From Bacteroidetes bacterium UBA2234 (lineage in GTDB: Bacteria; Bacteroidota; Bacteroidia; NS11-12g; UBA955): a stretch of DNA of 38,492 nucleotides. Shown in pieces: positions 9,273-33,779 of the stretch (position 1 is the first letter of the stretch; each line of letters starts with the position of its first letter). The notes under the pieces are model-generated. The model made no database searches and had not been told where the DNA came from. It worked only from the letters and a program-made list of their open reading frames with translations. The DNA lies in the NCBI GenBank assembly GCA_002347985.1, contig DDYM01000023.1:19148-57639 (forward strand). The letters are read 5' to 3'. The translations under genes and the position numbers were made by a program.

Positions 9273-11240
9273 ATGGGAAAAAGGGGTTGGATTTATTTGT
9301 TGTGTTTGTGTTTGGGGTCGGATTTGTTTGGTCAGGCCAAGAAATCTAAGCAGTCGCAAGCACCGGGAAAGGTATTGGTGGCGGGTGAATATGAGTTTAT
9401 TGCTAGGGATGAATTTGGGACGTTGGGATTGAGTGGGGCGATGATGCGCGCCGAAGGCGCGCGCAAGGCTCAGGGCAAAGCCCTGAGCCCCGAAATGCAA
9501 AAATCTTTCGATTCTCTTCTCACGCCATTTGAGAAATCGAAAGGGTTGGGTACAGCAAACTATTTTGAATGCGTGGCTTGGTATAAGCAACTGGCCGCTA
9601 CTTTCCCTGCCTACTGCTCCTTGCAATCTATCGGACTGGGCGATGCCGGAAAAGATATCTATGTGCTCAAGCTCAATGGCCCTGCCATGGAAACGATGGA
9701 TCGATTTGGCAATGGCGACATCGGAGTTGAAGCCGGACCCAAGGTAGAGGTTAAGCCCATCGTAAAAGTTTTAATTAACAACAACATACACCCTGGGGAA
9801 CCAGAAGGAACAGACGCATCGATGATTTTACTGCGCGATATGCTCTTCTTTGGTCAGTATTGGCAACAAGTTCTGCCCTACCTGCAACTCCATGTGATTT
9901 GCCAATACAATGTAGATGGCACCTTAATTCGAAGTGGAACATCTCGAGCCAATCAAAACGGACCGGTGGAATATGGTTTTAGGGGCAACGCACAAAACCT
10001 TGATTTGAATCGTGACTTTATCAAATTGGATTCGAGAAATGCCAGATCCTTGGTGGGGTTAATGGCCACGGAACAATATGATTTATTCATCGACAATCAC
10101 ACCAGCAACGGCGCTGATTATCAGTATGTATTAACGTATTTTCATACACGTCCTGAAAAATTACAACCGGGTTTAACGGATGTTTTATTGCCTTTCGAGA
10201 AATCGTTAAAAGAGCGATTGACTGCCAATCAATGGCCTACGGCTCCCTATGTTGAAACCATGAAAACAGTGCCGGATAGCGGATTGTTCGCATTCTGGGA
10301 AAGCGGCAGATATGCTACGGGATTTGCAGCTTTGCATCATACTTTGGGCTACACCGTAGAAACCCATATGCTCAAGCCCTTCTCCCAACGCATGCTTGGA
10401 ACATTGGCGTTCATGGAGCAGTTTTTGATTTGCGCCACCGCGCCATCTCTGAGAGGCGAGTTTGCCAGTACCCGCAGAAAATTCGTTGATTTTGCCCCCA
10501 AACCCATCGGAAAGTGGATGCCAATTCAGTTTCAGCTGGACCCATCCAAATTTGCGGAGATTGATTTCTTGGGTTTTGAATCAGGATACCGTCCGAGTGA
10601 AATTTCAGGCGCAGATCGGTTGGTGTACGATAGGTCCAAACCGTGGTCGAAAAAAGTGAAATACTACGATTCGTACCGTTGCACAGATAGCATTTTGGTA
10701 CCCAACGCTTACATCGTTCCCTTTGCCTACGGCGATGTGATTCAAAAGTTGAAATTAAACAAAGTGGTTTGCAAGCCGATTCCGTTTGATACAGTGGCAA
10801 TGTTGCGTGTGAGTTATATCACACAATTCAATACGGTGAGTCATCCTTATGAAAAACACTATCTACATCACAGTGTTAAAACCAGAGACACGCTATTGGC
10901 CGTTCAACTCAGGGCGGGCGATATGGTTGTTCCCATCACCTCGGCAAATGCGAAATTTGTGGTTTCTGTCTTAGAACCTCGGGCTGCAGATTCGTATTTT
11001 GCTTGGAATTCATTTGATGGTATTTTGATGCAGAAAGAGGGTTACAGCGATTACGTTTTTGAGGATTTGGCTTGGGAATGGTTACAGGAACACCCCGAAA
11101 TAAGGGCTCAGTTTTTACGCAAAAAGGCCAGCGACAGTGCCTTCGCAAAAGATTCATGGGGTCAATTGAATTGGGTGTACAAGCAATCCGTTTATTACGA
11201 AAAAACGCACAATCTCTATCCGGTATATCGACTAGATTGA
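9273..11240 (+). CDS. Secreted M14-family zinc carboxypeptidase-like protein
   Basis: A 655-residue exported metallopeptidase. The signal peptide is MGKRGWIYLLCLCLGSDLFG, cut near residue 20. The M14 domain spans about residues 95-400: zinc ligands HPGE (H173, E176), NLDLNRDF with the substrate Arg/Asn pair (about 242-249), third ligand in DNHTSNGADY (H276), and catalytic Glu probably in GYTVETHM (E363). The C-terminal 250 residues are an extra domain without a recognised family. ATG 9273 is used; the open frame extends to 9174 but that part overlaps DUF4293 and lacks signal-peptide character. Residues 58-72, between the signal peptide and the catalytic domain, are encoded by two adjacent perfect GC-rich palindromes. 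The stop overlaps the convergent membrane-protein gene by 9 bases. Likely digests peptides in the periplasm or outside the cell. Confidence 0.92.
   Translation: MGKRGWIYLLCLCLGSDLFGQAKKSKQSQAPGKVLVAGEYEFIARDEFGTLGLSGAMMRAEGARKAQGKALSPEMQKSFDSLLTPFEKSKGLGTANYFECVAWYKQLAATFPAYCSLQSIGLGDAGKDIYVLKLNGPAMETMDRFGNGDIGVEAGPKVEVKPIVKVLINNNIHPGEPEGTDASMILLRDMLFFGQYWQQVLPYLQLHVICQYNVDGTLIRSGTSRANQNGPVEYGFRGNAQNLDLNRDFIKLDSRNARSLVGLMATEQYDLFIDNHTSNGADYQYVLTYFHTRPEKLQPGLTDVLLPFEKSLKERLTANQWPTAPYVETMKTVPDSGLFAFWESGRYATGFAALHHTLGYTVETHMLKPFSQRMLGTLAFMEQFLICATAPSLRGEFASTRRKFVDFAPKPIGKWMPIQFQLDPSKFAEIDFLGFESGYRPSEISGADRLVYDRSKPWSKKVKYYDSYRCTDSILVPNAYIVPFAYGDVIQKLKLNKVVCKPIPFDTVAMLRVSYITQFNTVSHPYEKHYLHHSVKTRDTLLAVQLRAGDMVVPITSANAKFVVSVLEPRAADSYFAWNSFDGILMQKEGYSDYVFEDLAWEWLQEHPEIRAQFLRKKASDSAFAKDSWGQLNWVYKQSVYYEKTHNLYPVYRLD
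9446..9462. repeat. Perfect palindrome with 3-nt loop inside the M14 gene
   Basis: GCGCGCC and GGCGCGC flank the loop GAA: 7-bp arms, very GC-rich compared with the surrounding gene. Only 4 bases separate it from the next palindrome. Confidence 0.7.
9467..9489. repeat. Perfect palindrome with 3-nt loop inside the M14 gene
   Basis: GGCTCAGGGC and GCCCTGAGCC flank the loop AAA: 10-bp arms with no mismatch. It encodes part of the linker after the signal peptide. Confidence 0.85.
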
Positions 11241-12665
11241 ATCGGAGGATGAACCAATTTCGCTGTTTTTGCCGTCGTAAAGTGAAAACAGATACTCTAA
11301 AATAATACCGGCACAAAGCATCGGTAAGATCCAAAAATCCCTCGCATTGAGTCGCGCGAGCACATTGGCAAAACAGGCCGTTGAAAAGGCATTGCACAGA
11401 ATAAATAATCCTGCAATGCATAGGAATGCTATTAATAGTGGTTGGGGTCGTCGATAAAGGCAGAAAATCGCAGCAACAATCAAAATGAGGGATGCCCAGT
11501 CATAAATGTGATTGTAAAATTCAAAGTTGATGGTTCCTTGCTGCTGCTGGGAGTCGTGCAGAAACGCTTGATATTCCGATGGATAGTGCAGTTTTAATTC
11601 CTGAGCCAATGTTGCATTGGTATCGAGCGGCGTAAGTCCGTCTCCCCCATGGGTTAAAATCACTTGTTGCGCCGTGGCTGAAACAGCGGCTTGAATGTGA
11701 AGTGCAATGTACTTCGGCTTACTTAGGGTGCCTAAAATGATCTCGTTGTAGAGTTCTTTGCTGTGATGCCATCCACCGGTCTTTTCTAGAATGCCGTGGC
11801 TGTTCCAAACAAAGTCCCAAGTATGTTCTGGTAGACTGTCTTTATAGGCACAAAATGGATTGGGTTTTGAAGCACATTCGTTGTCTAAATAGGTTTTTAG
11901 AATGCCATTTTCGCACAGCTTACCCATGAAAAACACATGAGACCCCTTGCCAACGGTAGGTCCATTGCCACCCCATACATTGCTTGCAATCAGCAGGATC
12001 CATGGGAGTACAGAGAGGCCAACCAACGCGGCAGATTTTGCTATCGTAATATACTTTTTTAGGAATTGTGGTTTTCTGCCCAAATAACCTTTGAGCGAGA
12101 TCCAAATGGCGATGGAGAAGGTGGTGAGTGTGATCAAGTTGGCATTGTGCATAACGGCTGTGAACAAGATAACCGAAGCACAGACAATCGAGTTGCGAAG
12201 AGATTGTGTTTGGAGAAAGAGTAACACATAGATGCACAAAATGGCGGTGAAAATATCAGGCATCGCTTGGAATAAGAACCAAGGCATGGATGTGAGAAAG
12301 CAGGCGCATAGCCACATCAACAAGAATATCCATCGTTGTTTCAATTTGGACAGTGTAGGAAACAGCTTTTGTACCCATTGAAATATGCCAACAAAGAGTA
12401 AAATAAGCGGGGGTAGAACTACTATTTCGCCGAGGATTGGTTGTGTGAAGAGCGACATCAAATCGGTCAATCCGCGTAAATAAAGGCTGTAGAATACGGA
12501 TCGATCTAGGGGTATAGAGAGACTTTGGGCGGTCATTAAATAGGCGCCGCTGTCTGATGTATACAGTAGGCATCCGCCGGTTGCGAAGAGAAATGGCAGT
12601 AAACCGAGGAAGGCTAAGTTAATCGGCCAGTTGCTGTCTTGGAACCAACGCTGAAGCGCTTTCAT
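11232..12665 (-). CDS. Polytopic membrane protein of unknown function
   Basis: A 477-residue inner-membrane protein with about ten hydrophobic helices. Between the two halves (about residues 235-345) is a soluble loop with GNGPTVGKGSHVFFMGKL, ENGILKTYLDNECA, NPFCAYKDSLP and DFVWNSHGILEKTGGW. From memory, similar loop patterns occur in uncharacterised membrane proteins of several phyla, but I know no function. The first loop has YTSDSGAYL, loosely like the acidic first loop of GT39/GT83-type glycosyltransferases, which is one possibility but weak. ATG 12665 lies 8 bases after the PTPS stop, so it is probably the last gene of the efp-to-PTPS unit. It converges on and overlaps the M14 gene by 9 bases, with no terminator between them. 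Confidence 0.8.
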   Translation of the reverse strand: MKALQRWFQDSNWPINLAFLGLLPFLFATGGCLLYTSDSGAYLMTAQSLSIPLDRSVFYSLYLRGLTDLMSLFTQPILGEIVVLPPLILLFVGIFQWVQKLFPTLSKLKQRWIFLLMWLCACFLTSMPWFLFQAMPDIFTAILCIYVLLFLQTQSLRNSIVCASVILFTAVMHNANLITLTTFSIAIWISLKGYLGRKPQFLKKYITIAKSAALVGLSVLPWILLIASNVWGGNGPTVGKGSHVFFMGKLCENGILKTYLDNECASKPNPFCAYKDSLPEHTWDFVWNSHGILEKTGGWHHSKELYNEIILGTLSKPKYIALHIQAAVSATAQQVILTHGGDGLTPLDTNATLAQELKLHYPSEYQAFLHDSQQQQGTINFEFYNHIYDWASLILIVAAIFCLYRRPQPLLIAFLCIAGLFILCNAFSTACFANVLARLNARDFWILPMLCAGIILEYLFSLYDGKNSEIGSSSDSI

Positions 12666-12673
12666 GGGATGGA

Positions 12674-13090
12674 TTATTCCCCGAAGTACTCCACAAAATT
12701 GTTTTGTGTTTCCCAGAGTGTGATTTTATGCAAAGAAACGCCCTCTGGCAATTTGGGAGTTAATCGCTGCCAAATGGCAACAGCAACCGTCTCAATGCTA
12801 GGCATAGTGTCCTTTAACCAAGGTACATCGAGGTTTAAATTTTGATGATCCAGGTGGTCAATTACCTCTTCTCGAATGATAACTTTGAGTACTTTCAGGT
12901 CGATCACGCAACCTGTATCTGGATTGGGTTGTCCTTTTACACAAACGTATAAATCGAAATTGTGCCCATGAAAATGGGGGTTTGCGCATTTACCAAAGAC
13001 CTCATTATTTTTTTCATCGCTCCAAGTTGGATTCCACAACCGATGGGCGGCGTTAAAATGTTCTTTTCGGGTTAGGTAAAGCGTTGGCAT
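12674..13090 (-). CDS. 6-pyruvoyl-tetrahydropterin synthase / QueD family enzyme
   Basis: A 138-residue T-fold enzyme. Zinc ligands are H16 (FNAAH) and H41 and H43 (HFHGHN), with the catalytic cysteine in FGKCANP (C35). The DHQNLN and SIETVAVAIW segments are also conserved, and the Glu in LWETQNN probably binds the pterin. The family converts dihydroneopterin triphosphate either to 6-pyruvoyl-tetrahydropterin or, in QueD, to 6-carboxytetrahydropterin for queuosine. The GKCANPHFHGHN stretch looks closer to the eukaryotic-type PTPS than to E. coli QueD, but sequence alone does not settle the product. No queC, queE or folE neighbours are present. It has its own promoter-like box over the end of the lipoprotein gene. 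Confidence 0.93.
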   Translation of the reverse strand: MPTLYLTRKEHFNAAHRLWNPTWSDEKNNEVFGKCANPHFHGHNFDLYVCVKGQPNPDTGCVIDLKVLKVIIREEVIDHLDHQNLNLDVPWLKDTMPSIETVAVAIWQRLTPKLPEGVSLHKITLWETQNNFVEYFGE

Positions 13091-13103
13091 TGTCTTGCGG
13101 GTG

Positions 13104-13111
13104 CAAAATTA
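13104..13111 (-). promoter_or_regulatory. Promoter -7 box upstream of the PTPS/QueD gene
   Basis: TAATTTTG matches TAnnTTTG, ends 13 bases before the ATG and overlaps the stop codon of the upstream lipoprotein gene. It suggests an internal promoter in the efp unit. Confidence 0.45.
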
Positions 13112-13582
13112 CTGCGTTTTTTTGATTTCTTTCAGCACAAAAGTGTCTGGTAGAGAATATCGCATCAAACTACCTGTCATCGCATCAATCATCCAATTCC
13201 ATGGGATGATAAAATTGAGTCCGGCCGATTCGTTAAATCGGGGTTTAAGTACTTGACTGTTAGGTTGGTAATCGGGGTGGATTAGGGTAATTTTCAAACT
13301 GTCTTTGAGCGGTCTACGTACCTGAATAAAGCAAGGGGTGATGCCTGAAATTGTTGAATCAAGGACAATTTTCTTACTGATTTGGGTGTGAGCCATCAAA
13401 GAATCGTTCTCTGATTCTACAGGGATTTTGTTTACGATGATTCTCTCGGCTTGAATTTTTGCCCCCGGGGGATTGGAAACAATGTACAGCGATTGTTTTT
13501 TGCCGGTAATGATTGTTGCACAGCCGTATAATAATAGGCCGACCGTTAATCCAAAGAATATTATGCTTTGTTTCCGTACCAA
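13109..13582 (-). CDS. Small PEGA-like lipoprotein
   Basis: A 157-residue protein with a short hydrophobic N-terminus ending in LLLYGC, a plausible though imperfect lipobox, so probably a lipid-anchored envelope protein. The mature part has TGKKQSLYIVSNPPGAKI, ISGITPCFIQVRR and HPDYQPN, the pattern of PEGA-like beta domains, and ends with WNWMIDAMTGSLMRYSLPD, common in small Bacteroidota lipoproteins. Function unknown. The start is apparently TTG at 13582, overlapping the end of the cysteine desulfurase gene by 22 bases; I see no ATG or GTG before the hydrophobic segment. Existence is well supported by the signal and family pattern; the exact start is not. Confidence 0.75.
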   Translation of the reverse strand: MVRKQSIIFFGLTVGLLLYGCATIITGKKQSLYIVSNPPGAKIQAERIIVNKIPVESENDSLMAHTQISKKIVLDSTISGITPCFIQVRRPLKDSLKITLIHPDYQPNSQVLKPRFNESAGLNFIIPWNWMIDAMTGSLMRYSLPDTFVLKEIKKTQ

Positions 13583-14706
13583 TTGGCGAGTTGATTTACA
13601 GTAAATCGAATATCGTCTTCGGTATTTTGTTTTCCAAAACTAAATCGAACAGTGGTTCTGTTGCTTCCGGGGCTTAAGCAGTTGATGACATGGCTGCCAC
13701 CTGTTGCGCCGCTAGAACATGCACTTCCACCACTTGCCGATATTCCTGCGAGGTCGAGATTGAAAAGAATCATACTGCTAATATCATTTGGGGGAAGAGA
13801 TACGCTCAATACTGTGTAAAGAGAATTTCCCTCGGGGTCGCCATTGAATGATACGCCGGGAATGGATTCTCTTAGGAGTTGGATCATCAATCCTTTGATA
13901 TGTTCCAAATGGGCTTTTTTTGCATCCATTTCGCGGTATGCGATTTCCAATGCTTTCGCCAATCCAACAATTCCAATCACGTTTTCGGTTCCGCCGCGCA
14001 TTTCTCGTTCTTGGGCACCTCCGGTGATTTGCGGATGGATTTTATTTTTCTTGTTGATGTAAATAAAGCCTACACCTTTGGGTCCGTTGAATTTATGTGC
14101 GGCACCTGCAAGGAAATCGATGTGTCCTTGACTCAGATCAAAACGATATTGACCCATGGTTTGCACCGTATCGCAATGGAAAATACCACCGGCATTATGC
14201 ACCATCTGACCCACAGTCTCGATATCGATGATATTTCCTATTTCATTGTTTGCATGCATCAAACTTACCAGGGGTTTGGTAGTTGAATTCAAAAGGGTTT
14301 GCAGGTGTTGCAAATCGATATGGCCATTGGGTAAGATGTTAACCATGTGAAGTCCAACCCCATTTTTATGATGCATTTCTTCCACGGTATGCAAAACAGC
14401 ATGGTGTTCAATGGGAGATGAAATGATATTTTCGATACCTAGATTGGCTACACTGCCTCTGATGGCAAGGTTGTCTGCTTCGGTTCCGCCACTGGTGAAG
14501 AAAATTTCACCGGGTGTACAACCCAATAATTTTGCAATGCTACCTCTTGCTTCTTCGATGATGCCTCTTACTTTTCTTCCGTGGGCATGCGTAGAACTGG
14601 GATTGCCATAATGTTCACGCATGATTGGGATCATGGCTTCCACTACCTCTTCTGCGATTGGCGTGGTTGCGGCATTATCTAAATAAATTCTTTGGGCAGT
14701 TGTCAT
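13561..14706 (-). CDS. Cysteine desulfurase (IscS/NifS type)
   Basis: A 381-residue PLP enzyme that takes sulfur from cysteine as a persulfide for Fe-S clusters and tRNA thiolation. Class V aminotransferase motifs in order: IYLDNAATTP, GNPSSTHAHGR, FTSGGTEADNLAI, SPIEHHAVLH, HANNEIGNI, HCDTVQTMGQ, the PLP lysine in AAHKFNGPKG, MRGGTENV, and the catalytic-cysteine loop SGGSACSSGATGGSHV. The loop is of the mobile IscS/NifS (group I) type. ATG 14706 overlaps the agmatinase stop as ATGA. No iscU, sufB or other partner is nearby, so the exact role (isc, nif-like or tRNA modification) is unclear. Enzyme call confident. Confidence 0.96.
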   Translation of the reverse strand: MTTAQRIYLDNAATTPIAEEVVEAMIPIMREHYGNPSSTHAHGRKVRGIIEEARGSIAKLLGCTPGEIFFTSGGTEADNLAIRGSVANLGIENIISSPIEHHAVLHTVEEMHHKNGVGLHMVNILPNGHIDLQHLQTLLNSTTKPLVSLMHANNEIGNIIDIETVGQMVHNAGGIFHCDTVQTMGQYRFDLSQGHIDFLAGAAHKFNGPKGVGFIYINKKNKIHPQITGGAQEREMRGGTENVIGIVGLAKALEIAYREMDAKKAHLEHIKGLMIQLLRESIPGVSFNGDPEGNSLYTVLSVSLPPNDISSMILFNLDLAGISASGGSACSSGATGGSHVINCLSPGSNRTTVRFSFGKQNTEDDIRFTVNQLANWYGNKA

Positions 14707-15599: not shown

Positions 15600-15605
15600 C
15601 CGTGT

Positions 15606-16166: not shown

Positions 16167-16180
16167 AAATTTAATTTATG

Positions 16181-16188
16181 CAAAAATA
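16181..16188 (-). promoter_or_regulatory. Promoter -7 box upstream of efp
   Basis: TATTTTTG matches TAnnTTTG and ends 14 bases before the efp ATG. The surrounding sequence is AT-rich; no clear -33 TTG is seen. Confidence 0.5.
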
Positions 16189-16219
16189 CGACAATTTTTT
16201 TGAATGGTTAAATTGGGCC

Positions 16220-18009: not shown

Positions 18010-18021
18010 TTCAATTCGTAA

Positions 18022-19401: not shown

Positions 19402-19423
19402 GAACCTCGAAGCGATATTTGTT

Positions 19424-21141: not shown

Positions 21142-21151
21142 CAAAGTTGTA

Positions 21152-21159
21152 CAAAGTTA
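21152..21159 (-). promoter_or_regulatory. Promoter -7 box upstream of the M28 gene
   Basis: TAACTTTG matches TAnnTTTG and ends 10 bases before the ATG at 21141. No -33 TTG lies at the usual distance; a TTTG is 25 bases upstream. Confidence 0.55.
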
Positions 21160-21223: not shown

Positions 21224-22111
21224 ATGGATAATTCAATTCAAAGTATGACGGGTTTCGGAAGAGCCCAAATGGAAACCCCTTCTTTGCGAGCAGTTTGTGA
21301 GATTAAGGCGTTAAATGGACGGTATTTTGAGGCGGATTTGCGTTTGCCCAAATTTTTGTATGAGATTGACCCTCAAATACGTAGGTTGTTAAATGAGAAA
21401 TTGGAAAGAGGAACAATTACTTGTACCTATTCGATTACTTTCCCCAATGTAAAGGCCGAGGATCAAGAGATTCACGTGAACGTGGGTTTGGCAAAAGCGT
21501 ATTTGGATAAGTATCAGGAATTGAGTGGGGCCTTGGGAATTGAATTTCGTGATCCCTTTCGCGATATCATTCGGATCCCAGAGGTAATTCAAACGGGGGA
21601 GCGCGGTGTTGAGGATGAGGTGAAAAAGGCAATCGTAGCATTGACGTTGCAAGCGGCGGACATGTTATTGCAATTTAGAAAGGAAGAGGGAAAGGCCACG
21701 GGTGTGAAATTGCTTTCTTTGATCGAGTCAATCCAGTTGGATTTGAATGAAGTTTCGATTCACGAAGAACCTCGCAAGCAAGGCTTGCGCGATCGTATTT
21801 ACGGTCAACTTTCCGAACATGTGACGTCTGAACTCAGGGATAACAATCGATTTGAACAGGAAATATTGATGTACTTGGACAAATGGGACATCGCGGAGGA
21901 AAAACAGCGTTTGCAGCAGCATTTGGATTACTTCAGAACTTGCCTACAGAAAGAGCCGTTGGGAAGAAAATTGAATTTTATCGCCCAAGAAATGGGTAGG
22001 GAAATGAACACAATGGGAGTGAAGAGCAACTATTTTCCTATGCAACAGGCTGTAGTTCAGATGAAAGAAAAATTGGAACAAATCAAAGAACAAGTACTTA
22101 ATCTCGTTTGA
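21224..22111 (+). CDS. yicC: YicC/YloC family endoribonuclease
   Basis: A 295-residue member of the YicC family; E. coli YicC takes part in degrading small RNAs such as RyhB, and related proteins are endoribonucleases. The N-terminus SMTGFGRAQ and EIKALNGRYFEADLRLP are family signatures, as is the C-terminal DUF1732 region with EEKQRLQQHLDYFRTCL, GRKLNFIAQEMGREMNTMGVKSN and VQMKEKLEQIKEQVLN. Length is normal. First gene of a plus-strand unit; the next gene starts 5 bases after its stop. Residues about 184-189 are encoded by a perfect 7-bp palindrome. Confident on family; RNA targets here unknown. Confidence 0.96.
   Translation: MDNSIQSMTGFGRAQMETPSLRAVCEIKALNGRYFEADLRLPKFLYEIDPQIRRLLNEKLERGTITCTYSITFPNVKAEDQEIHVNVGLAKAYLDKYQELSGALGIEFRDPFRDIIRIPEVIQTGERGVEDEVKKAIVALTLQAADMLLQFRKEEGKATGVKLLSLIESIQLDLNEVSIHEEPRKQGLRDRIYGQLSEHVTSELRDNNRFEQEILMYLDKWDIAEEKQRLQQHLDYFRTCLQKEPLGRKLNFIAQEMGREMNTMGVKSNYFPMQQAVVQMKEKLEQIKEQVLNLV
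21773..21789. repeat. Perfect palindrome with 3-nt loop inside yicC
   Basis: CGCAAGC and GCTTGCG flank the loop AAG: 7-bp arms. On its own this is weak evidence; it is listed because loop length and coding location match the others. Confidence 0.5.
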
Positions 22112-22116
22112 TAATA

Positions 22117-24480
22117 ATGGTAAAGCAAAACTCGCAAATCGGCCGGAGGCAATGGCAACTGGCGATTTGTTTAACGCTCCTAAAAATTGGTTCAATTGCA
22201 ACGTTGAATGCGCAGTGGTCAACCCCTGAGCCGCAAGTGGATTCAATCAGCAAATCCGTTGTTGAGGATACCACCTCCGCCCAAGAACCAATTTATCAAG
22301 ACCCGTTATTCCGCGACAGTCTTCGTAGGCAACTCACTTTGTTGGATTACAGCAATTCGTTGTCAACTATACAGGCATCGGAAATATTGGAGACGTTGAT
22401 GAAAACAAAGGATTTAACGCAATTTGATGTTGTATACTTGCCTTGGCATAGGATTCAAATCGTGTTGATGCAACAGTACCTAAAGCATCCCGATTCGCTT
22501 CACATGGATTATTTGCGCGTAGGTTGGAAGGACGATGTTGAATTTCCGGAGTCCTTGTTTTTGTTCATGCGTGATTTACAGAAAAAACAGCCTGGCGTAT
22601 GGGATAAGATTCGATTTGAGCCATTGACGTACGCTGAGGATTTTTTAGATAATCGCAATGAGCTCCGTGAGCGAGACAATGTTGAGTTGCTCAGTTATCC
22701 CGATCAAGAATACGAATGGGCTTTGGCGGCTGCTTTGAATTCGCTTTTCCCCGCCGATCAAACCGTTGGATTGCAAACTGATTCTCTCGGTGGGACTGCT
22801 ATGCCTGCATCAATTAGGACGCAAGTAGAAGCGATAAAGGCCATGGTTTCTTCTGCTTTATGGGACAGGGTTTGGAAAGATAGATTTGAATTAAAAGCAG
22901 CAGAAAGCAAATCGGAATCCTCAGATGAAAGTTCGGATGAAGAATTTGTAATAGATCCAGCATTTGGTAGCGTGCCCACGATTACGGCTCTGAGAGATAG
23001 TATGCCATTTATAATGAATGACTTAGAGGGGTGGATGCCTGCAGAGAACCGCGCTATGTTTCGTCAGCTTTTGCCATACACGGAGAGAACAATGGAACTG
23101 GAAGTGGAATTGACAGATTTCGCGAATTCTGCTTTTAACAAGAACAAGAAAGTGATGCATACCATCCCAACCACGGGTCAAGTGATTCAGAGCGTAATGA
23201 ATCGGACGGCGAGAAACGGGTATGAGGCAATGGTTTATAGGGACTACCAAATTCGTTGCATTGCCAAAGAAAAGGCGAGGGTGTTGGTGCTCCTTAACGA
23301 TTATAGAGAATGTATTGATCGATCTAAATATTTGCCTACTGCGATGCCAAGTCTATTGAGTGTTTTGCTCCAGGCGGGTTTGAAAACAGATTCGATACTG
23401 AGGGTTTTCATGGTTCCAGAGGATCGATTTGATTTTAATTCGGAGTTGATTTCCAATAAAAATGATTCAGTAAGTATGCTGGATGTTCATCAAGTGAGAA
23501 ATTTGAAAACGAACCCAACGATTTTTCAATTTTTAATCGATACAACAGGGTACTCGGTTGATACAGCTGTAAGCGATCAGCCCTTTGGGATGGATGAAAA
23601 TTTGGGCTCAGATTCTATGCATCCATTGGTGCTTTTGGATGTTTTCCATCAGTATGAGATTTCCGACAAGGTAGGTGTGAAAACGGTGTTTATTGGACAG
23701 AAAAATGCGGAAAGTGAGACTTTATATGATACAGCAGCCATGGCGGCTTATTGGGAGGGGGATTCTGAGTACTCATCCAACGGGATTTTTTTACGTGGCT
23801 ATAATGCTGCATTTGAAATGAACTATGTGTATTGTGCCAATCAATTGAAAGTGGGTGCATTAAATTCCGTTTTGCGCTCCGAAGGTTTATCCGAAATTGG
23901 TATGATCAACGCCCAAGGAATGGCATTTGGTATTTCTTACAGGGCAGGTGATTGGGAAGACGGCGGACGGATTGTTAAAAATGATCGATTCGTCTTCGCT
24001 CAATCATCGCCATTGGTAAACGCGAATCTGCGTAGCACTTACATGATTTGGTACGATGAAAACCAGATATCGTTTGGAAGGCATTTTGTGCTGGGAGTAG
24101 GCGGTTACACAGGGTATGTTCAACATGTTCTAAAGAACTTTTCTGCTGCCTCGGGTACATTTATCAATCAAGATCAGCCCAGTTTTACTGTGGTAAATCC
24201 AGCTTATGTGTATGGCTTTTCTGTTTCACCGGCGGTGAATGTTGGAAATTTCTATGCCCGTGGTTCTTTGGGTTATGGGTGGGATTTTGGAAAAAAGACA
24301 TGGAATTATCAAGGTTCGCCAATGAATAATTCGGGTGGATTAAAGAGCACTGGTGTAATGATAACTGGTGAAATAGGTTACCGATATCTATTTGATTTTA
24401 AGGCAAAAACCGCCTACGCTCCCATCCGATTTGATGGTGATTCAGCTCAGAAATCTAACAAAAGGAGGGTAGTACGATGA
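22117..24480 (+). CDS. Large exported protein of unknown function
   Basis: A 787-residue protein not recognised from any family. A signal peptide (about residues 10-35, ending ATLNAQW) shows it is exported. After it come a helical, charged region, an acidic Ser/Asp/Glu-rich linker (about 265-290, SKSESSDESSDEEF), more helix-rich sequence, and a C-terminal 180 residues with alternating Gly and aromatic residues (LGVGGYTGYVQHVL, GSLGYGWDFGKKTW, GEIGYRYLF) like outer-membrane beta strands. The last residues are strongly basic (SNKRRVVR). ATG 22117 is preferred to a TTG at 22108. It starts 5 bases after yicC and its stop overlaps the next gene by ATGA, so it should be made with the erythromycin-esterase-like protein. 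A two-protein envelope system is possible; no function is claimed. Confidence 0.8.
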   Translation: MVKQNSQIGRRQWQLAICLTLLKIGSIATLNAQWSTPEPQVDSISKSVVEDTTSAQEPIYQDPLFRDSLRRQLTLLDYSNSLSTIQASEILETLMKTKDLTQFDVVYLPWHRIQIVLMQQYLKHPDSLHMDYLRVGWKDDVEFPESLFLFMRDLQKKQPGVWDKIRFEPLTYAEDFLDNRNELRERDNVELLSYPDQEYEWALAAALNSLFPADQTVGLQTDSLGGTAMPASIRTQVEAIKAMVSSALWDRVWKDRFELKAAESKSESSDESSDEEFVIDPAFGSVPTITALRDSMPFIMNDLEGWMPAENRAMFRQLLPYTERTMELEVELTDFANSAFNKNKKVMHTIPTTGQVIQSVMNRTARNGYEAMVYRDYQIRCIAKEKARVLVLLNDYRECIDRSKYLPTAMPSLLSVLLQAGLKTDSILRVFMVPEDRFDFNSELISNKNDSVSMLDVHQVRNLKTNPTIFQFLIDTTGYSVDTAVSDQPFGMDENLGSDSMHPLVLLDVFHQYEISDKVGVKTVFIGQKNAESETLYDTAAMAAYWEGDSEYSSNGIFLRGYNAAFEMNYVYCANQLKVGALNSVLRSEGLSEIGMINAQGMAFGISYRAGDWEDGGRIVKNDRFVFAQSSPLVNANLRSTYMIWYDENQISFGRHFVLGVGGYTGYVQHVLKNFSAASGTFINQDQPSFTVVNPAYVYGFSVSPAVNVGNFYARGSLGYGWDFGKKTWNYQGSPMNNSGGLKSTGVMITGEIGYRYLFDFKAKTAYAPIRFDGDSAQKSNKRRVVR
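24461..24468 (+). promoter_or_regulatory. Strong Shine-Dalgarno sequence, unusual for this genome
   Basis: AAAGGAGG lies 8 bases before ATG 24477, inside the last codons of the previous gene. It is a near-perfect anti-16S match. I see no comparable site before the other genes here, and Bacteroidota generally do not rely on Shine-Dalgarno pairing. Confidence 0.55.
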
Positions 24481-26531
24481 AAAAAATAATTGGAGTCATT
24501 GCTGCTATGATGGCAGGTTCATTGATGGCACAGGAGCAACCCATTTTACCATTGGGTTTTGATTTCGATTTTAAATCGAATCATTTCAATGATCAAGAGG
24601 CGGTGAAGTTGATGGCCAAGCGAGCAAAAAGTGCCCGTGTAATTTTGTCTGGGGAGAATCATTATTATTCCAAGTTCAATTCTTTGGCGGAATACAGATT
24701 TTTGCGCATGATGCATGAGAATGCGGGTGTAAGGAACTTTGTGATTGAGTTAAGTCCAACCCGCGCTTATTTTATGGAGCGCTATTTTACCAAGGAAGAT
24801 TCCATTGCAAAAATGTTTTTGATGGCAACCAGCTCAAAGCATTACATGAATCTATTCGACAGTATTGCCAACTGGAATCGCAAATTGCCAGCGTCGGAGC
24901 AAATTAAAGTGCAGGGATTGGATGTAGAACGATTTAGTGATATGTCGGTCCTTTGGTTGTACGATATTTTAAAGCGCCGCGGTACGCCGCCAGCGGAGCT
25001 GGCGGCCGGCATCTATCTTGCCAGAAATGCTGCCAACGGTATTCTCACAGACGGACTGATGAATTTTTATAACGATGAAGAAGATTTCGTAGTCGAAACC
25101 GATGCAACCACAGAGGAATCATCGGAATCAATTGCCGATACTGCAGTTCTTGTCGCCACTTTCGACAGTGCAGGGGTAGAGCACCCCGTGGTAAAAATTC
25201 CAACTATCGAGGATTGGCAAGCGAGAGAATTTAATTCTATCATAGAACCTAGGCCCTCCGGTACAGGAGATGGCGAAGATGTGTTTTATTTGGTGGATTG
25301 GTTAAAAGAATACGGGGCAGCAGATGGACCTTTTGCGGATTCATGCAAAGCATGGAAAAATTGGCTTGGCTCCGATTATGCGGAATACGTAAAAGTATAT
25401 CGTCAATTGAAAGAATGGCAGCAATGGGAAAACCTCGACAATACAGCTCAGCAATACACTTGGCGGGAAGAACATATGTACCGAAATATGGTTGCATTGC
25501 TCAGCAACAACCCCAATGAGAAATATTACGGCCAATTCGGTAGATGTCACACTTCCCTGGTAAAGCAACAACAAGATTGTGGTTGGTTTGAATACAATAG
25601 TTTGCTAACCCGATTGAGGACGCGTTATTTCCAAAACGATACCTCTGTGATGTCGATTGGAATCTTCTACGTAAAAGACAAAGACAGCGATGGAGATATT
25701 TGCGCGGAAAATCTGAGTAATAACCCAACCATTAATGCCGAAGTTAAGGCCTTATATGAAACAGTGGATAATAACATGCTGCTGTTCGATCTTAGGGCGA
25801 GCGATTCGCAATTGAAAGAGTTGCCAAAGAAATTTAACTTTGTCTTGGTCCATGATTATACAGATCAGGCCGATGACGAAGAATCAAACTGGGGTGAATC
25901 GGATGAAAATTTCTCCACGCGGTATTTTTCTTTGGGTGCGAGTAGAATGATCATTCCTCAAATGATGACATCGTCTATGGTGCAGCATTTTGCCGATAAC
26001 CAATACGCTGTTTCCAATCCCAAATTGTTTTCGTATCAATTGTATCAAATGGGTGCCCATAGTTCCAACGCGAATTTATTGATCGGTGCAGGTGGCAAGA
26101 ACAAAGATATTTTCTCTGGTGAAAATGGGGAAAGGCTGAATTATGGATCTAGAACTTACACGGCGGATTTATTATTCCATACCAACAGTGGCCATCACAA
26201 GTGGGTGCTTGGAATAGGTGGAAGAGCTTGGTATCAAATCCAGCGTATTAAATATACACCTCCAACGTTAAATATTCTCAATCCAAGACCAGACGGTAGC
26301 AAAACGATTCAAAGTCGTGAATGGTTGCCGGCGGCTTATTTAAGTGTTGAAAGACGATTTGTAAGTCAATTCTCTCTGACATTCAATGTGGGTTATCGAA
26401 AAGATATGTCCACTGGAAAATGGTATTTTCAAAATAGCGGACTGCCCTACTATGAAGGAAAGTCAATTGGTGGCGATATGAGTTCGTTATTTGCTGAATT
26501 GGGTCTGCGAATCGGAATTATTAAATTATGA
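24477..26531 (+). CDS. Exported erythromycin-esterase-like protein with C-terminal barrel-like region
   Basis: A 684-residue exported protein with signal peptide MKKIIGVIAAMMAGSLMA. Residues about 40-400 carry the spaced motifs of the erythromycin esterase (EreA)/ChaN-like fold: VILSGENHYYSKFNSLAEYRF (E60, H62), FVIELSPTRAY (E91), VQGLDVERF (145-153), RxxxMxxN-like WREEHMYRNM (R330, M334, N337) and YYGQFGRCHTS (H358, where Ere proteins usually have HNxH). Residues about 195-265 are an acidic insertion. The last 150 residues look like outer-membrane beta strands, as in the previous gene. Some members hydrolyse ester substrates, but here a substrate cannot be named and resistance should not be assumed. 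Residues 170-177 are encoded by a perfect palindrome. It overlaps both neighbours by ATGA, between the unknown exported protein and pssA. Confidence 0.75.
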   Translation: MKKIIGVIAAMMAGSLMAQEQPILPLGFDFDFKSNHFNDQEAVKLMAKRAKSARVILSGENHYYSKFNSLAEYRFLRMMHENAGVRNFVIELSPTRAYFMERYFTKEDSIAKMFLMATSSKHYMNLFDSIANWNRKLPASEQIKVQGLDVERFSDMSVLWLYDILKRRGTPPAELAAGIYLARNAANGILTDGLMNFYNDEEDFVVETDATTEESSESIADTAVLVATFDSAGVEHPVVKIPTIEDWQAREFNSIIEPRPSGTGDGEDVFYLVDWLKEYGAADGPFADSCKAWKNWLGSDYAEYVKVYRQLKEWQQWENLDNTAQQYTWREEHMYRNMVALLSNNPNEKYYGQFGRCHTSLVKQQQDCGWFEYNSLLTRLRTRYFQNDTSVMSIGIFYVKDKDSDGDICAENLSNNPTINAEVKALYETVDNNMLLFDLRASDSQLKELPKKFNFVLVHDYTDQADDEESNWGESDENFSTRYFSLGASRMIIPQMMTSSMVQHFADNQYAVSNPKLFSYQLYQMGAHSSNANLLIGAGGKNKDIFSGENGERLNYGSRTYTADLLFHTNSGHHKWVLGIGGRAWYQIQRIKYTPPTLNILNPRPDGSKTIQSREWLPAAYLSVERRFVSQFSLTFNVGYRKDMSTGKWYFQNSGLPYYEGKSIGGDMSSLFAELGLRIGIIKL
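24986..25006. repeat. Perfect palindrome with 3-nt loop inside the esterase-like gene
   Basis: GCCGCCAGC and GCTGGCGGC flank the loop GGA: 9-bp arms. Locally very GC-rich in an AT-leaning gene; encodes about TPPAELAA. Confidence 0.75.
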
Positions 26532-27798: not shown

Positions 27799-27810
27799 AC
27801 GGAGAGCCCT

Positions 27811-28386: not shown

Positions 28387-28395
28387 TCGTTGGTT

Positions 28396-29295
28396 TTAAG
28401 GCGCTGAAAATAAGACGCTAATCAACCCAACCAGCATTGTGAGTTTGAGCCATTTGCTGATTTTCTTGTAATCACGTTTGTTTTGTGCCTTGCCTATCAT
28501 CCACATAGATTTGAATATCATGGGTACGAGGCCAAGAACCAAAAAGGCGGGGAAAATGAACTTATGGGATTCAATGGGTGATTTGACGTTCAATAGAGTT
28601 TGGATCGAAAGCAAATAGGCGGATGTAACCAAGAATATGATAATCAGGGCCAAAATAACATTGCTTAGAATATTGGTTTTTCGTGTGCCATGGACAATTG
28701 GGAATGTTTCGCACCCCTGTTCTTTGTCGCCTTCAATATCTTCGGCATCTTTCACTAACTCCCTTGCCATTGTGAGCAGAAAAGCCAAAAACGCGTATTC
28801 GGCAAAATAGGCGGAGTGAATTTCATGAATGCCACGGGAGGCGATATAAATGACCGAGCCCGACATAAAAGCGATGAGCGAATTTCCTGGCAATCCCATC
28901 GCCTTGAGATCGGATGAATAAAAATAGAGAAGTATCGCAATGGCAGAGGAAAATAAACCAATGCCAAGCCCAGCATAATACCCGCATATTTGGCCTAACA
29001 CAGTTAGAACGATATAATAAACGATGGCGGCTTTGTGCGAGATGTCACGCTTAAGAATTCGTTTGTTGGGACGATTGATGTGGTCTGTTTCTACATCGAA
29101 AAGATCATTGATGATATATCCGCCTGCTGCTGTCAAACAACATGTGAGGATGATTAATACAGATTCAGGCCAGACAATATTGGACCAATCAACGTTGAAA
29201 TAACTCGTTCTAGAGGCAGCAATCATGAAAACCCCTTGGGTGAAAAGGGTGAGCAGAATGTTGTTTGGCCTCAGAATGGCGAGATAGGGTCGCAT
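28396..29295 (-). CDS. UbiA-family prenyltransferase
   Basis: A 299-residue integral membrane enzyme with about eight to nine helices. Both Asp-rich prenyl-diphosphate/Mg motifs are seen: NDLFDVETDHINRPNKR and DAEDIEGDKEQGCETFPI. The second fits the geranylgeranylglycerol-phosphate-synthase-like subgroup often annotated in Bacteroidota simply as geranylgeranylglycerol-phosphate geranylgeranyltransferase. The acceptor could be a quinone ring, a heme or another lipid; the sequence does not decide. ATG 29295 gives MRPYLAILRPNNILL, the usual opening; a TTG at 29313 is less likely. It lies 24 bases after def, probably in the ruvX-def-UbiA unit. Confidence 0.93.
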   Translation of the reverse strand: MRPYLAILRPNNILLTLFTQGVFMIAASRTSYFNVDWSNIVWPESVLIILTCCLTAAGGYIINDLFDVETDHINRPNKRILKRDISHKAAIVYYIVLTVLGQICGYYAGLGIGLFSSAIAILLYFYSSDLKAMGLPGNSLIAFMSGSVIYIASRGIHEIHSAYFAEYAFLAFLLTMARELVKDAEDIEGDKEQGCETFPIVHGTRKTNILSNVILALIIIFLVTSAYLLSIQTLLNVKSPIESHKFIFPAFLVLGLVPMIFKSMWMIGKAQNKRDYKKISKWLKLTMLVGLISVLFSAP

Positions 29296-29319
29296 AGCTA
29301 CAAGTGGTAGCAAGCTACA

Positions 29320-29874
29320 TTATTTTTTTGGAAATTTCATCTTGTAGGGGGCGTTGACCATCCCTTGAGATATGTTTTGTAATTTCTTTTTCAGCATGTT
29401 GCGTTTGAGTGGATGTATGCGGTCCGTAAACAATATGCCTTCGATATGGTCGTACTCGTGTTGAATGATTCGGGCCGCCATGCCTTCATAAGTCTCTGTT
29501 TTCTCCTGGAAATTTTCATCCAAATATTGAATGGTGACTTTGGCGTTTCGTTTCACATTGGCTCTCACAAAAGGGATGGAAAGGCAACCTTCCTCATATT
29601 CCCATGGTGTGTCGAACTCCTCCAGAATTTTCGCATTGATAAATACCTGTTTGAAATCTTTGGTGCTCGGGTCATCTTCAATGTCGGTTCCGTCCACAAT
29701 AAATAACCGAATCGGCAAGCCAATTTGGGGGGCCGCCAAACCAATTCCACTGCTATCGTACATGGTTTCAAACATGTTTTCCAATAGGGTATTTAGTCCT
29801 TCGTATTCTGGCGTGATGTCTTCGGCTTTTTTGCGGAGTACGGGCATTCCGTAGGCGTAAATGGGCAGTATCAT
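29320..29874 (-). CDS. def: Peptide deformylase
   Basis: A 184-residue metalloenzyme that removes formyl from the N-terminal Met of new proteins. Motif I GIGLAAPQIG (43-52), motif II EEGCLSIP (C97 is a metal ligand) and motif III QHEYDHIEG (H139, E140, H143) are complete, so it should be active. Length and ILPIYAYGMPVLRKKAEDI start are usual for Bacteroidota. ATG 29874 overlaps the ruvX stop by ATGA. Confident. Confidence 0.98.
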   Translation of the reverse strand: MILPIYAYGMPVLRKKAEDITPEYEGLNTLLENMFETMYDSSGIGLAAPQIGLPIRLFIVDGTDIEDDPSTKDFKQVFINAKILEEFDTPWEYEEGCLSIPFVRANVKRNAKVTIQYLDENFQEKTETYEGMAARIIQHEYDHIEGILFTDRIHPLKRNMLKKKLQNISQGMVNAPYKMKFPKK

Positions 29875-30284
29875 GAAATTTTCTGTAGGTAAGTTTGGAG
29901 GATAATGGCGGCGCTTACGGCATCGATGAGACCTTTGTTCGCCCTTTGGGATTTCTTTGCCCCGGAGGCGATGATAGACTGCTGTGCTTCGTGACTTGTG
30001 AGACGCTCATCAATAGTAAAAACGGGTATTTCTGGATAGGTTGATTTGAGCGCTTCGATGAATTGCTTTACCGGCTGGGTGGCATCGGTATCGGTTCCAT
30101 TCAGGTTCGTAGGCAGACCCACAACAAAGGATTCCACGTCTTCATCGTACAGATAGGAGTCGAGATACATTTTCAAGTCCACTGTATATACCATTTCAAG
30201 GGGTTGGGCGATCATTTTTAGGGGGTCTGTTACGGCGAGGCCAGTGCGCTTACTACCATAATCGATGCCCATGATTCTTCCCAT
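29871..30284 (-). CDS. ruvX: YqgF/RuvX family RNase H-like nuclease
   Basis: A 137-residue RNase H-fold protein of the YqgF/RuvX family, implicated in 16S rRNA 5' end processing and proposed as a Holliday-junction resolvase. MGIDYGSKRTGLAVTDP carries the first catalytic Asp; FVVGLPTNLNGTD, FTIDERLTSHEAQ and GLIDAVSAAIILQ carry the rest. ATG 30284 (MGRIMGIDYG) matches homologues, which usually begin with GRI or similar. A TATCTTTG box ends only 4 bases upstream, so the message would be leaderless. It precedes def. Confident on family. Confidence 0.96.
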   Translation of the reverse strand: MGRIMGIDYGSKRTGLAVTDPLKMIAQPLEMVYTVDLKMYLDSYLYDEDVESFVVGLPTNLNGTDTDATQPVKQFIEALKSTYPEIPVFTIDERLTSHEAQQSIIASGAKKSQRANKGLIDAVSAAIILQTYLQKIS

Positions 30285-30288
30285 TTTA

Positions 30289-30296
30289 CAAAGATA
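30289..30296 (-). promoter_or_regulatory. Promoter -7 box upstream of ruvX
   Basis: TATCTTTG matches TAnnTTTG and ends 4 bases before ATG 30284. The same octamer lies upstream of alanine dehydrogenase. No clear -33 element. Confidence 0.55.
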
Positions 30297-30375
30297 CGGA
30301 AATGCTAGAATTGGGCGGTGGGATTCTATATGGGATGTATAGGGGTTGTTTTTTATATCGGGAGTTGTTGTAAAT

Positions 30376-30406
30376 AAAAGGGCCCCGTCGTAGACGGGGC
30401 CCTTTT
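30376..30406 (-). terminator. Terminator of the groESL operon
   Basis: A perfect 14-bp stem (AAAAGGGCCCCGTC on the plus strand) with a GTA loop lies 65 bases after the groEL stop. T-runs follow on both strands, so it could also stop plus-strand transcription. It separates groEL from ruvX; the other 150 or so bases of that gap show only the ruvX promoter box. Confidence 0.88.
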
Positions 30407-30471
30407 TAATCCCTGCAAAGAGAAATTTCCTTGCAGCGCATTGAATACTTATTAGAATCTGAAAGAATGAA

Positions 30472-32398
<1,927 letters not shown>

Positions 32399-32430
32399 AG
32401 TATTATTGTTTTTGATTTTGCTTTCACTTG

Positions 32431-32445
32431 GCGAATTGTGTGCCA
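32431..32445 (-). promoter_or_regulatory. Sigma-54-like -24/-12 sequence upstream of groES
   Basis: TGGCAC-N5-TCGC against consensus TGGCAC-N5-TTGC: one mismatch, with GG and GC at the required spacing. The inferred transcript start would fall about 20 bases before the groES ATG. No TAnnTTTG box is found in this 118-base gap. Only the match supports it. Confidence 0.4.
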
Positions 32446-32511
32446 ATGGCGAAAAGGAGGTTTTGGGGGGTAGGGACGACGAAAATTTGTCAGTTTAACC
32501 CCTGGCGGGTA

Positions 32512-32524
32512 TGTCATTATGACA
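32512..32524. repeat. Short palindrome between waaA and groES
   Basis: TGTCATTATGACA is a perfect inverted repeat covering the waaA stop codon, about 114 bases upstream of groES. It could be an operator, but at this length it could be chance. Confidence 0.3.
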
Positions 32525-33779
32525 ACCTTTCACAAAACGCGATGATATTGGCTTGTTGGTTTTGCGCCACATTTTTGGCAATTTGGCCAATGGGATGAGG
32601 TTGATTGGGGGAAAAGGATTGAAAAAGTTGAAGCAATGCGTTATCAAATTCGGATTGATTTTTCACTGAAAATCCGCAACCGGCTTGAATGAATTGATCT
32701 GCTTCGGGAAATTTATTGTGTTTGGGTCCAAAGATGATAGGGAGTCCAAACGCTGCCGCTTCGATGGTATTGTGTAGGCCTTTTCCAAAGGCACCGCCGA
32801 TTACGGCAATGGTACCAAAACGATAGGATTCGGCGAGGAGACCAATGCTATCAAGGATAAGGATGTGGGTATTTGTTGGGATGTTTTTGGAGCATTCGCT
32901 AAATCGAAGGGCTTGGGTATTGATTGTTTCAAGACATTGATTTTGAATGGCTTCACAGAAATTGTTGTTGATATTGTGGGGTGCAATGAGGATTTGGCCG
33001 TGGGGGAGAATTTCTGGATTTTTTTGAAAGAAATGCAGAATTAGATTGATTTCGGGTTGCCAAGCACTGCCGAGGACAAGGGTAGGTTTTTGGGTGAGCC
33101 AGTTTTGTAATTCTATGGGCAGGGCGGAGGGTTGCAGGGTTCTTTGAACGGCGCGATTGAATTTTGTATCGCCGAAAACGAAGGTGTTGTTGAGGTTATT
33201 TTCGACGGCAATTTGATGCATTTTGGCGTTGATGACTCCGATGGCATTGAGTTTTTGAAGTAGCTGTAACCAGGGTTTCCCAAGGGGTTTGAAGAGCCAG
33301 TGTTGGGGGGTTATAGAAACGCCGAGGGCGTAGCAGGGTATATTACGTAGTAGGGTTTGTTGGATGAAATGGTACCAAAAATCGTAGCGGATGAAAATGA
33401 CTGTGGAGGGGTTCCATTGCTCGAGGCAGCGCTGCGCGCTGCCTCGACTATCCAACGGCAAATATGCTTTGGACTGATTCAATTCTAACTTGGAATGTTC
33501 ATACCCGGAAGGAGAAAAAAACGTGAACAAAATATGCCGTTGGCTAGAGGCCGCCTGCAAGGCGGCCGCAATGGGCTTAGCCATTTCAAACTCCCCTAAC
33601 GATGCACAATGAATCCAAATCAATTCCTTCGGAACAACCCCGTCCTTCCACCAACCTTCTTTCAATCGAGCTCTGGATTCGCGCTGACCGTCTCTCAAAC
33701 GCTTTGCCTTGGCATTCCACAGCGAAAGCAATCGTATGCCCATCGCATAACATCGCATCGCTACATCGTAAACCCTCAT
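32517..33779 (-). CDS. waaA: 3-deoxy-D-manno-octulosonic acid transferase
   Basis: A 420-residue GT30 enzyme adding Kdo from CMP-Kdo to lipid A precursor at the inner membrane. One N-terminal membrane segment (VYDVAMRCYAMGIRLLSLW) anchors it. The N-terminal domain has WIHCASLGEFEMAKP, with the likely catalytic Glu in GEFE, and FTFFSPSGYEHSKL. The C-terminal domain has LVLGSAWQPE and IGGAFGKGLHNTIEAAAFGLPIIFGPKHNKFPEA. Length normal. ATG 33779 follows the outer-membrane-like protein gene by 3 bases, so the two are coupled. Two perfect GC-rich palindromes (33421-33447 and 33549-33567) lie in the coding sequence without changing the expected spacing between motifs. Confident. Confidence 0.96.
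   Translation of the reverse strand: MRVYDVAMRCYAMGIRLLSLWNAKAKRLRDGQRESRARLKEGWWKDGVVPKELIWIHCASLGEFEMAKPIAAALQAASSQRHILFTFFSPSGYEHSKLELNQSKAYLPLDSRGSAQRCLEQWNPSTVIFIRYDFWYHFIQQTLLRNIPCYALGVSITPQHWLFKPLGKPWLQLLQKLNAIGVINAKMHQIAVENNLNNTFVFGDTKFNRAVQRTLQPSALPIELQNWLTQKPTLVLGSAWQPEINLILHFFQKNPEILPHGQILIAPHNINNNFCEAIQNQCLETINTQALRFSECSKNIPTNTHILILDSIGLLAESYRFGTIAVIGGAFGKGLHNTIEAAAFGLPIIFGPKHNKFPEADQFIQAGCGFSVKNQSEFDNALLQLFQSFSPNQPHPIGQIAKNVAQNQQANIIAFCERLS
33421..33447. repeat. Perfect palindrome with 3-nt loop inside waaA
   Basis: TCGAGGCAGCGC and its exact reverse complement flank the loop TGC: 12-bp arms, the longest of the set. It encodes about SRGSAQRCLE, a stretch of normal length for the family. 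Confidence 0.88.
33549..33567. repeat. Perfect palindrome with 3-nt loop inside waaA
   Basis: GGCCGCCT and AGGCGGCC flank the loop GCA: 8-bp arms. It encodes about AAALQAAS, just after the GEFE motif. Confidence 0.7.

Follow-up and report, generated by a model that had tools for sequence, protein, structure and literature searches.

Perfect palindromes with three-nucleotide GNA turns in genes of a freshwater Flavobacteriales genus: probable footprints of template switching

Six perfect inverted repeats with arms of 7, 10, 7, 9, 12 and 8 bp, each closing on a loop of three nucleotides, lie in four genes (M14 peptidase, YicC-like, a 684-aa protein and waaA) of a 38,492-nucleotide stretch of contig DDYM01000023.1 of Bacteroidetes bacterium UBA2234, called here the window. 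They were listed in an initial annotation made from the letters alone, and all six were exact on recheck. As far as the comparison of sequences can tell, palindromes of this kind are probably marks left by template switching, or quasipalindrome correction, where the DNA turns as a tight hairpin. The genome shows an excess of three-nucleotide loops and a preferred loop class (GNA, read as TNC on the other strand), and among its relatives the sites show equal length, concerted change of the two arms, inversion of the loop and replacement of amino acids. We favour template switching because gene length stays equal, arms are copied, loops flip, proteins are altered, the hosts are unrelated genes and the turn is of a DNA type.

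The window belongs to the genome of an uncultured freshwater member of the Flavobacteriales (G000; 2.19 Mb in 74 contigs). Judged by waaA, its closest named records are metagenome-assembled genomes, and the isolate name of one points to Lake Baikal. The other genomes of its genus are designated G001 to G014. All are metagenome assemblies, and about one third of G000 and one half of G010 were sampled.

Length and sequence of the loops

Loop lengths were compared with codon-preserving shuffles, as the initial annotation had proposed, using 671,233 letters of G000 with 558 predicted genes and 12 synonymous-codon shuffles. A strong excess of three-nucleotide loops was observed in genes: 14 palindromes with arms of at least 10 bp against 0.8 +/- 0.7 in the shuffles, 17 against 3.1 +/- 1.3 at 9 bp or more, 26 against 10.1 +/- 1.7 at 8 bp or more and 63 against 34.1 +/- 4.1 at 7 bp or more. 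With arms of at least 10 bp, loops of 4-20 nucleotides together gave 5 palindromes where about 9 were expected (summed from the table of shuffles), and loops of two nucleotides were slightly high (3 against 0.9 +/- 1.1). The same arm length gave 8 three-nucleotide loops in G010 against 0.1 +/- 0.3, and the one-nucleotide loop was also raised there (3 against 0.2 +/- 0.4).

Genes were predicted by a simple longest-open-reading-frame rule, and several of the palindromes counted as in-gene lie in the first 5% of their frame and could precede the true start codon. A strict set that does not depend on gene prediction, 193,635 bp of aligned homologous coding sequence of G000 and G010, gave eight three-nucleotide loops in G000 at arms of at least 10 bp, together with one loop of 0 and one of 14 nucleotides and no other length up to 20; in G010 it gave eight, with one each at 0, 14 and 16.

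Loop classes were counted in 689,233 letters of G000 (5,334 of them N), 793,221 of G010 without its contig C8, 100,000 of G014 and, as a control, 596,455 letters pooled from seven genomes of the same order. In-gene three-nucleotide loops with arms of at least 10 bp numbered 15, 19, 2 and 2, respectively, and those with arms of 8-9 bp numbered 12, 16, 3 and 15. The excess was present in the samples of G000, G010 and G014. It was absent in those of G008 and G013 (same genus), G020, G022 and G026 (family) and G040 and G044 (order), and the rate of template switching would be higher in this clade than in the sister lineage. Contig C8 of G010 was left out; it probably comes from a G008-like organism, because its MutS match has the same contig coordinates and score as the match of G008 on C11. 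Full MutS matches number two in G010, one of them on this contig (L166).

The loop sequence depends on the length of the arms. GNA or TNC made up 15% of the in-gene three-nucleotide loops of G000 at 5-bp arms (n=381), close to the chance share of 12.5%, then 26% at 6 bp, 41% at 7 bp, 75% at 8-9 bp (9/12) and 14 of 15 at 10 bp or more (binomial p 4e-11 against 15%). The shares at 10 bp or more and at 8-9 bp were 15/19 and 7/16 in G010, 2/2 and 2/3 in G014, and 0/2 and 2/15 in the control. Intergenic palindromes with arms of at least 10 bp carried the same loops in 18 of 23 cases in G000 and G010 together. Loops of four nucleotides were few, and 17 of the 33 with arms of at least 8 bp in these two genomes, genes and spacers together, read GNNA or TNNC.

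GNA or GNNA loops on G-C stems form extraordinarily stable DNA mini-hairpins (Hirao, Yoshizawa; PMC4686876). RNA energy parameters favour loops of 4 nucleotides or longer over those of three. On these two grounds the turn looks like DNA, not RNA. The likeness to the mini-hairpins lies in the loop class, which in PMC4686876 is an in vitro property of oligonucleotides; here the GNA turn may be what sets the three-nucleotide rule. The DNA parameters of ViennaRNA give an identical energy to all 64 triloops closed by C-G and hence are no test of GNA.

Some of the members with 7-8-bp arms, such as those at 33549 and 9446, which are almost invariant codons, would be explained by chance, by base composition, by protein motifs or by errors of assembly. 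As a source of the whole set these explanations are extremely improbable in the face of the shuffles, the controls and the recurrence of the same sites, with differing arms, in many assemblies made independently from a variety of waters.

The centre base of three-nucleotide loops with arms of at least 8 bp stood at the first codon position in 32 of 62 cases (G000 and G010), that of 7-bp-arm palindromes at the second position in 43 of 84, and that of odd loops of 5-19 nucleotides at the first position in 132 of 458. GNA lay on the G-rich strand, at arms of at least 10 bp, in 21 of 25 cases in G010 (p 0.002 against the triplet ratio) and in 12 of 22 in G000. A replication-strand bias was dropped, since the two genomes disagree and several cuts had been tried; a pooled count of 45 to 20 had counted orthologues twice.

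Changes at the palindromic sites within the genus

The waaA palindrome at 33421 illustrates how the sites change. Its arms, TCGAGGCAGCGC/GCGCTGCCTCGA in G000, read GCCAGGCAGCGC/GCGCTGCCTGGC in G005, G007, G010 and G011 and GCATCCAGCGC/GCGCTGGATGC in G003 and G006, and its loop is GCA, GAA or TTC depending on the genome. From 10 to 12 of the 12 pairs are formed in 11 relatives; G008, with 5/12, and G013 have no palindrome. In comparison with G005, G007 and G011, 6 of the 10 residues encoded by the palindrome are kept while all 12 pairs are, and the flanks keep 57-58 of 60 residues with DNA 91-93% identical. The arms change at equal length among relatives, as expected from the earlier suggestion that this stretch was rewritten and not inserted.

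Similar behaviour was observed at other sites. In dprA, a palindrome with 19-bp arms in G000 has 18-bp arms in four relatives, is interrupted in G005 and is missing, with gene length unchanged, from G001, G002, G006, G008, G009, G012, G013 and G014. A second gene for the DNA polymerase III alpha subunit (second dnaE; L032:187-3456) contains several palindromes of the three-nucleotide-loop kind, and in it an 8-bp core is flanked by outer extensions of two unrelated kinds, 18 bp in G000, G004 and G010 and 16 bp in G003 and G006. A gene of the WD40 family has arms of 19-20 bp in five genomes, and its relative in G012 has 18 of 19 pairs. At the 9467 site of the window the loop AAA is replaced by its reverse complement TTT in G005, and the arms are lengthened from 10 to 13 bp in G007. 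The 24986 palindrome is found also in G005 and G007, is broken in G011 and is absent, at equal length, from 8 other aligned relatives.

The dprA, second dnaE, waaA, 9467 (14/14) and 24986 (12/12) sites were ungapped in every aligned genome, and all eight sites aligned for length were equal, except for a one-codon gap at the WD40 site in G008 and G013 only. Neither of the outcomes that the initial annotation had named as refuting was obtained: the sampled genome has the excess of three-nucleotide loops, and the codons of the long palindromes are not conserved for protein reasons. Relatives show this in waaA, in dprA and in the second dnaE, where both arms have changed together and gene length has not.

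Insertion of mobile palindromic elements, REP-like or Rickettsia-type, would agree with many short palindromes scattered over a genome. It is nevertheless a very remote prospect, contradicted by genes that are equally long whether or not they bear the palindrome; no length is added at aligned sites, and the arms share no sequence in the sampled genome, so that the palindromes are not one repeat copied around, as had already been noted from the six.

Which arm is copied may vary. The left arm of dprA is the closer match to most palindrome-less relatives (left to right 11:7 in G012, 9:6 in G002 and G014, 8:6 in G001 and 9:4 in G009), tied in G006 (8:8) and lower in G008 (6:9); at site 1 of L032 the right arm is the closer match in five palindrome-less relatives. 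This suggests, from few sites, that either arm can serve as donor.

Three further sites were noted. In the WD40 gene at L149:10980-11978, a palindrome with 15-bp arms and a two-nucleotide loop lies in or beside extra codons that are missing from G010, and therefore not every palindrome is length-neutral. Palindromes with 24-bp arms and no loop lie in a gene of G000 and G010 (L146:14726-15301 and L224:6026-6736), with three compensated pair changes between them. In G010 (L176:5748-6479), a 17-bp-arm palindrome encodes LSGGRSAAAAQT in a rhodanese-thioredoxin protein (Pfam), a stretch that we take to resemble the rhodanese active-site loop.

Between G000 and G010, the 8 sites with three-nucleotide loops and arms of at least 10 bp comprise 112 stem pairs, of which 4 had compensated changes and 1 was changed in one arm only or left unpaired; these are small numbers. 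Loops of 4-20 nucleotides gave 24 compensated pairs and 495 not (Fisher p 3e-5 against the former class). A low number of one-sided changes is expected from correction as well as from selection.

Loop inversions were counted at 18 three-nucleotide-loop sites common to at least two genomes, with arms down to 6 bp, in six genes chosen because they bear palindromes. The loop varies at 8 of the 18 sites, and 5 of these 8 hold both a loop and its reverse complement, where reshuffling of the loop states gave an expectation of 1.6 (P 0.004). At 12 sites, 133 of 1,234 stem cells were unpaired (21 G-T, 42 A-C and 70 other), with no G-U excess among them.

The proposed process would start from a short imperfect inverted repeat whose middle turns as a tight DNA hairpin, with a loop of three nucleotides, best GNA closed by C-G. 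The growing strand would fold back on itself or cross to the opposite strand, so that the second arm is made on the first as template; such a switch of the polymerase would leave perfect arms in a gene of unchanged length, and the arms could extend outward. Later mutations in one arm would be carried into the other. A switch that crosses the loop between strands would invert the loop, while extension of the arms is possible within one strand.

Selection for hairpins in the messenger RNA (mRNA), acting on stability, translation pausing or protection from nucleases, would also bring about compensatory changes. It is compatible with the concerted arms and the low one-sided change, and the homologue-supported loops lean to TNC on the coding strand, although all in-gene palindromes together are balanced (21 GNA and 24 TNC, p 0.77). 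We consider it unlikely, however. Loop inversions are not expected from it, the unpaired cells lack a G-U excess, and GNA triloops are not singled out by RNA, whose parameters prefer longer loops. The hosts are unrelated genes by Pfam with sites spread all along them, and the intergenic palindromes have the same loops. DNA hairpins or cruciforms selected as sites of protein binding or cleavage, in chromosome organisation, uptake or recombination, would suit a DNA-type loop class found in and between genes at positions that persist in the genus. This too is improbable, and more so than selection on mRNA: the arms have no sequence in common, sites appear, disappear and are rewritten, the palindromes are kept at the cost of changes in the proteins, and no candidate protein was identified. 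Templated correction, which the initial annotation had put forward beside hairpin selection, is the better fit because loops flip, a G-U excess is missing and protein sequence is sacrificed.

Several observations weigh against template switching as described here. With arms of 7-9 bp, three-nucleotide loops had 1 compensated pair and 37 not between G000 and G010; set beside 4 to 1 at 10 bp or more, this implies that maintenance or correction acts on palindromes of about 10 bp or longer and does not act on shorter ones. None of 17 changed loops in this pair of genomes was an inversion, with both directions counted. The homologue-supported sites read TNC on the coding strand in 6 cases and GNA in 1 at arms of at least 10 bp (8 sites, p 0.125), and in 9 and 2 cases at 8 bp or more (p 0.065), a lean that may point to an effect of strand, which replication alone need not produce. 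Indels contain or adjoin some of the long palindromes. The DNA energy parameters hold no bonus for GNA, and the stability argument comes from the literature only. Switching was derived from comparison, with no event observed directly, and a lineage cause was not found among the distributions of the second DnaE, SbcD-like proteins, XseA and MutS (see below).

Palindromes and host genes of the window

As shown in Table 1, the window contains further palindromes beside the six. The initial list was real in every member and selective: loops of other lengths on arms of at least 8 bp were left out, and so was a stronger three-nucleotide case, the intergenic palindrome at 30376, which has the same GNA turn as the palindromes in genes. 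With arms of at least 8 bp, the window holds five loops of three nucleotides, three of one, two of 15 and one each of 2, 6, 7, 10 and 14; with arms of at least 9 bp and loops of 0-15, four are of three nucleotides, one is of one and no other is found. The arms of the six were described as GC-rich; arms elsewhere in the genome are not always so.

Table 1. Palindromes of the window and the genes that hold them (positions in the window)
Feature	Position	Strand	Arms and loop	Context
Palindrome	9446..9462		7 bp, GAA	in M14 peptidase gene; exact
Palindrome	9467..9489		10 bp, AAA on coding strand	in M14 peptidase gene; exact
Zinc carboxypeptidase (M14) family gene	9174..11240	+		PF00246, E 3.6e-10; true start may be downstream
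Palindrome	21773..21789		7 bp, AAG	in yicC-like gene; exact
YicC-like gene	21224-22111
Palindrome	24986..25006		9 bp, GGA	in gene of 684-aa protein; exact
Gene of 684-aa protein	24477-26531			without Pfam match
Palindrome	33421..33447		12 bp, GCA on coding (-) strand	in waaA; exact
Palindrome	33549..33567		8 bp	in waaA, codons for AAALQAA; exact
waaA (KDO transferase)	32517..33779	-		PF04413, E 6.8e-30
Intergenic palindrome	30376..30406		14 bp, GTA	A-run before, T-run after; terminator-like on both strands
In-gene palindrome	7588..7606		9 bp, 1-nt loop T

The members with arms of 7-8 bp (9446, 21773, 33549) may be due to chance or to conserved codons and carry little weight alone; the 7-bp cases had been regarded from the start as possibly chance, and none of the 7-8-bp members is individually beyond it. 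The 9446 palindrome keeps its 7-bp arms and GAA in 10 genomes including its own, among 13 of the genus that cover the site, and the 33549 palindrome is almost invariant across the genus except in G008 and G013. Since their codons are almost invariant in most of the genus, these two are weak evidence alone. The 21773 site has 9-bp arms in G010 (loop AGG) and G014 (loop AAG). The one-nucleotide loop at 7588 is A, the complement of T, in G010. No T run was found in the flanks of the six in-gene sites, which therefore do not resemble intrinsic terminators.

Candidate causes and known systems

The distribution of several genes was compared with that of the palindromes. The second polymerase gene, which matches NCBIfam PRK05672 below its cut-off and may encode an error-prone enzyme, is matched in full or in part in 13 of the 15 genomes of the genus and is missing from G008 and G013; in G012 and G014 its relatives have an in-frame stop within the matched stretch. 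It was rejected as a sufficient cause, since G020, G040 and G044 carry relatives (67, 52 and 50% identity) without a GNA excess. Loss of a nuclease or of mismatch repair was rejected likewise, as the distributions of SbcD-like proteins, XseA and MutS do not track the palindromes well enough. The SbcD family had any match in 20 of 58 genomes, 1 of them over the cut-off; XseA was found in 17/58, with 3/15 in the genus, and MutS in 58/58, with 53 over the cut-off. A metallophosphatase below the cut-off stands beside an SMC-like ATPase (G000:C54) in 11 of the 15 genomes of the genus and not in G006 and G010, both of which bear palindromes. At L205:6395-9990 a metallophosphatase of 385 aa adjoins an SMC-like ATPase of 813 aa; most members of the genus have this arrangement, G008 and G013 not, and we assume that it resembles a Mre11/Rad50-type pair.

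Template switching as a process is known from bacteria and yeast. In E. coli, quasipalindrome correction (a literature to which PMC7202029 belongs) perfects imperfect repeats by copying one arm; here, by contrast, the excess is large at arms of at least 10 bp, falls in one class of three-nucleotide loops and is confined, among the genomes sampled, to part of the genus. A small excess of short inverted repeats in prokaryotic coding sequence has been attributed to template switching (Ladoukakis and Eyre-Walker 2008, via PMC4060949 and PMC8794818), coding regions are generally normal for inverted repeats in the excerpted text of PMC4060949, and the spacer preferred in bacteria is 4 bp (PMC13155455).

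A similar kind of change is known from Saccharomyces cerevisiae, where template switching in coding genes was deduced from strain phylogenies (Abraham and Hazkani-Covo 2021, PMC8604942), with homogenised arms, inverted spacers, replaced amino acids and short spacers. Loop inversion was assigned there to switching between strands, and spacers were inverted only with arms above 9 bp, with which the divide at 10 bp seen here would be in line. That system differs in being eukaryotic, in resting on ten spacer inversions among strains with spacers of 2-5 bp and, in the text excerpted, in stating no GNA rule. By our own count of its Table 2, section 6, all four inverted 3-bp spacers are GNA or TNC (chance 2e-4 at 1/8 each).

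Perfect in-gene inverted repeats, gained and lost without cost in length and ascribed to proposed template switching, are also found in the mitochondria of Nematomorpha (PMC6649704), with arms of up to 284 bp, whereas here they are of 8-20 bp with a set loop; a favoured codon phase is described there. Compensatory double changes and loop inversions are likewise shared with template switching that makes and preserves RNA hairpins (PMC8794818), which concerns RNA genes with a selected hairpin, in contrast to protein genes without known hairpin use. Among open-licence papers, no literature was found linking GNA loops to template switching or to genomic inverted repeats. Three features look new: how strong the effect is, its three-nucleotide GNA turn, and its occurrence in only part of a single genus of freshwater Flavobacteriales.

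Reporter assays and scattered cases have so far been the main sources on template switching at short inverted repeats. A dense footprint with one turn sequence, dated by relatives, would let turn, donor arm and strand be studied by comparison and would give a rule, the GNA turn, testable in laboratory strains. Stem changes that compensate each other are usually taken to prove that a structure is selected; they can arise in protein genes without known structural need. We suggest, tentatively and with somewhat less than even confidence, that DNA with a GNA turn acts in this clade as a self-propagating mark, which, once seeded, would grow, copy its own arms, move mutations between them and impose its pairing on the protein, and that the cause is a replication or repair trait gained or lost after the split from the G008/G013 lineage. 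If so, the mark would supply, continually and guided by sequence, protein changes of several residues at once, and the yeast spacer inversions with a GNA turn would point to a general rule for where fold-back copying starts.

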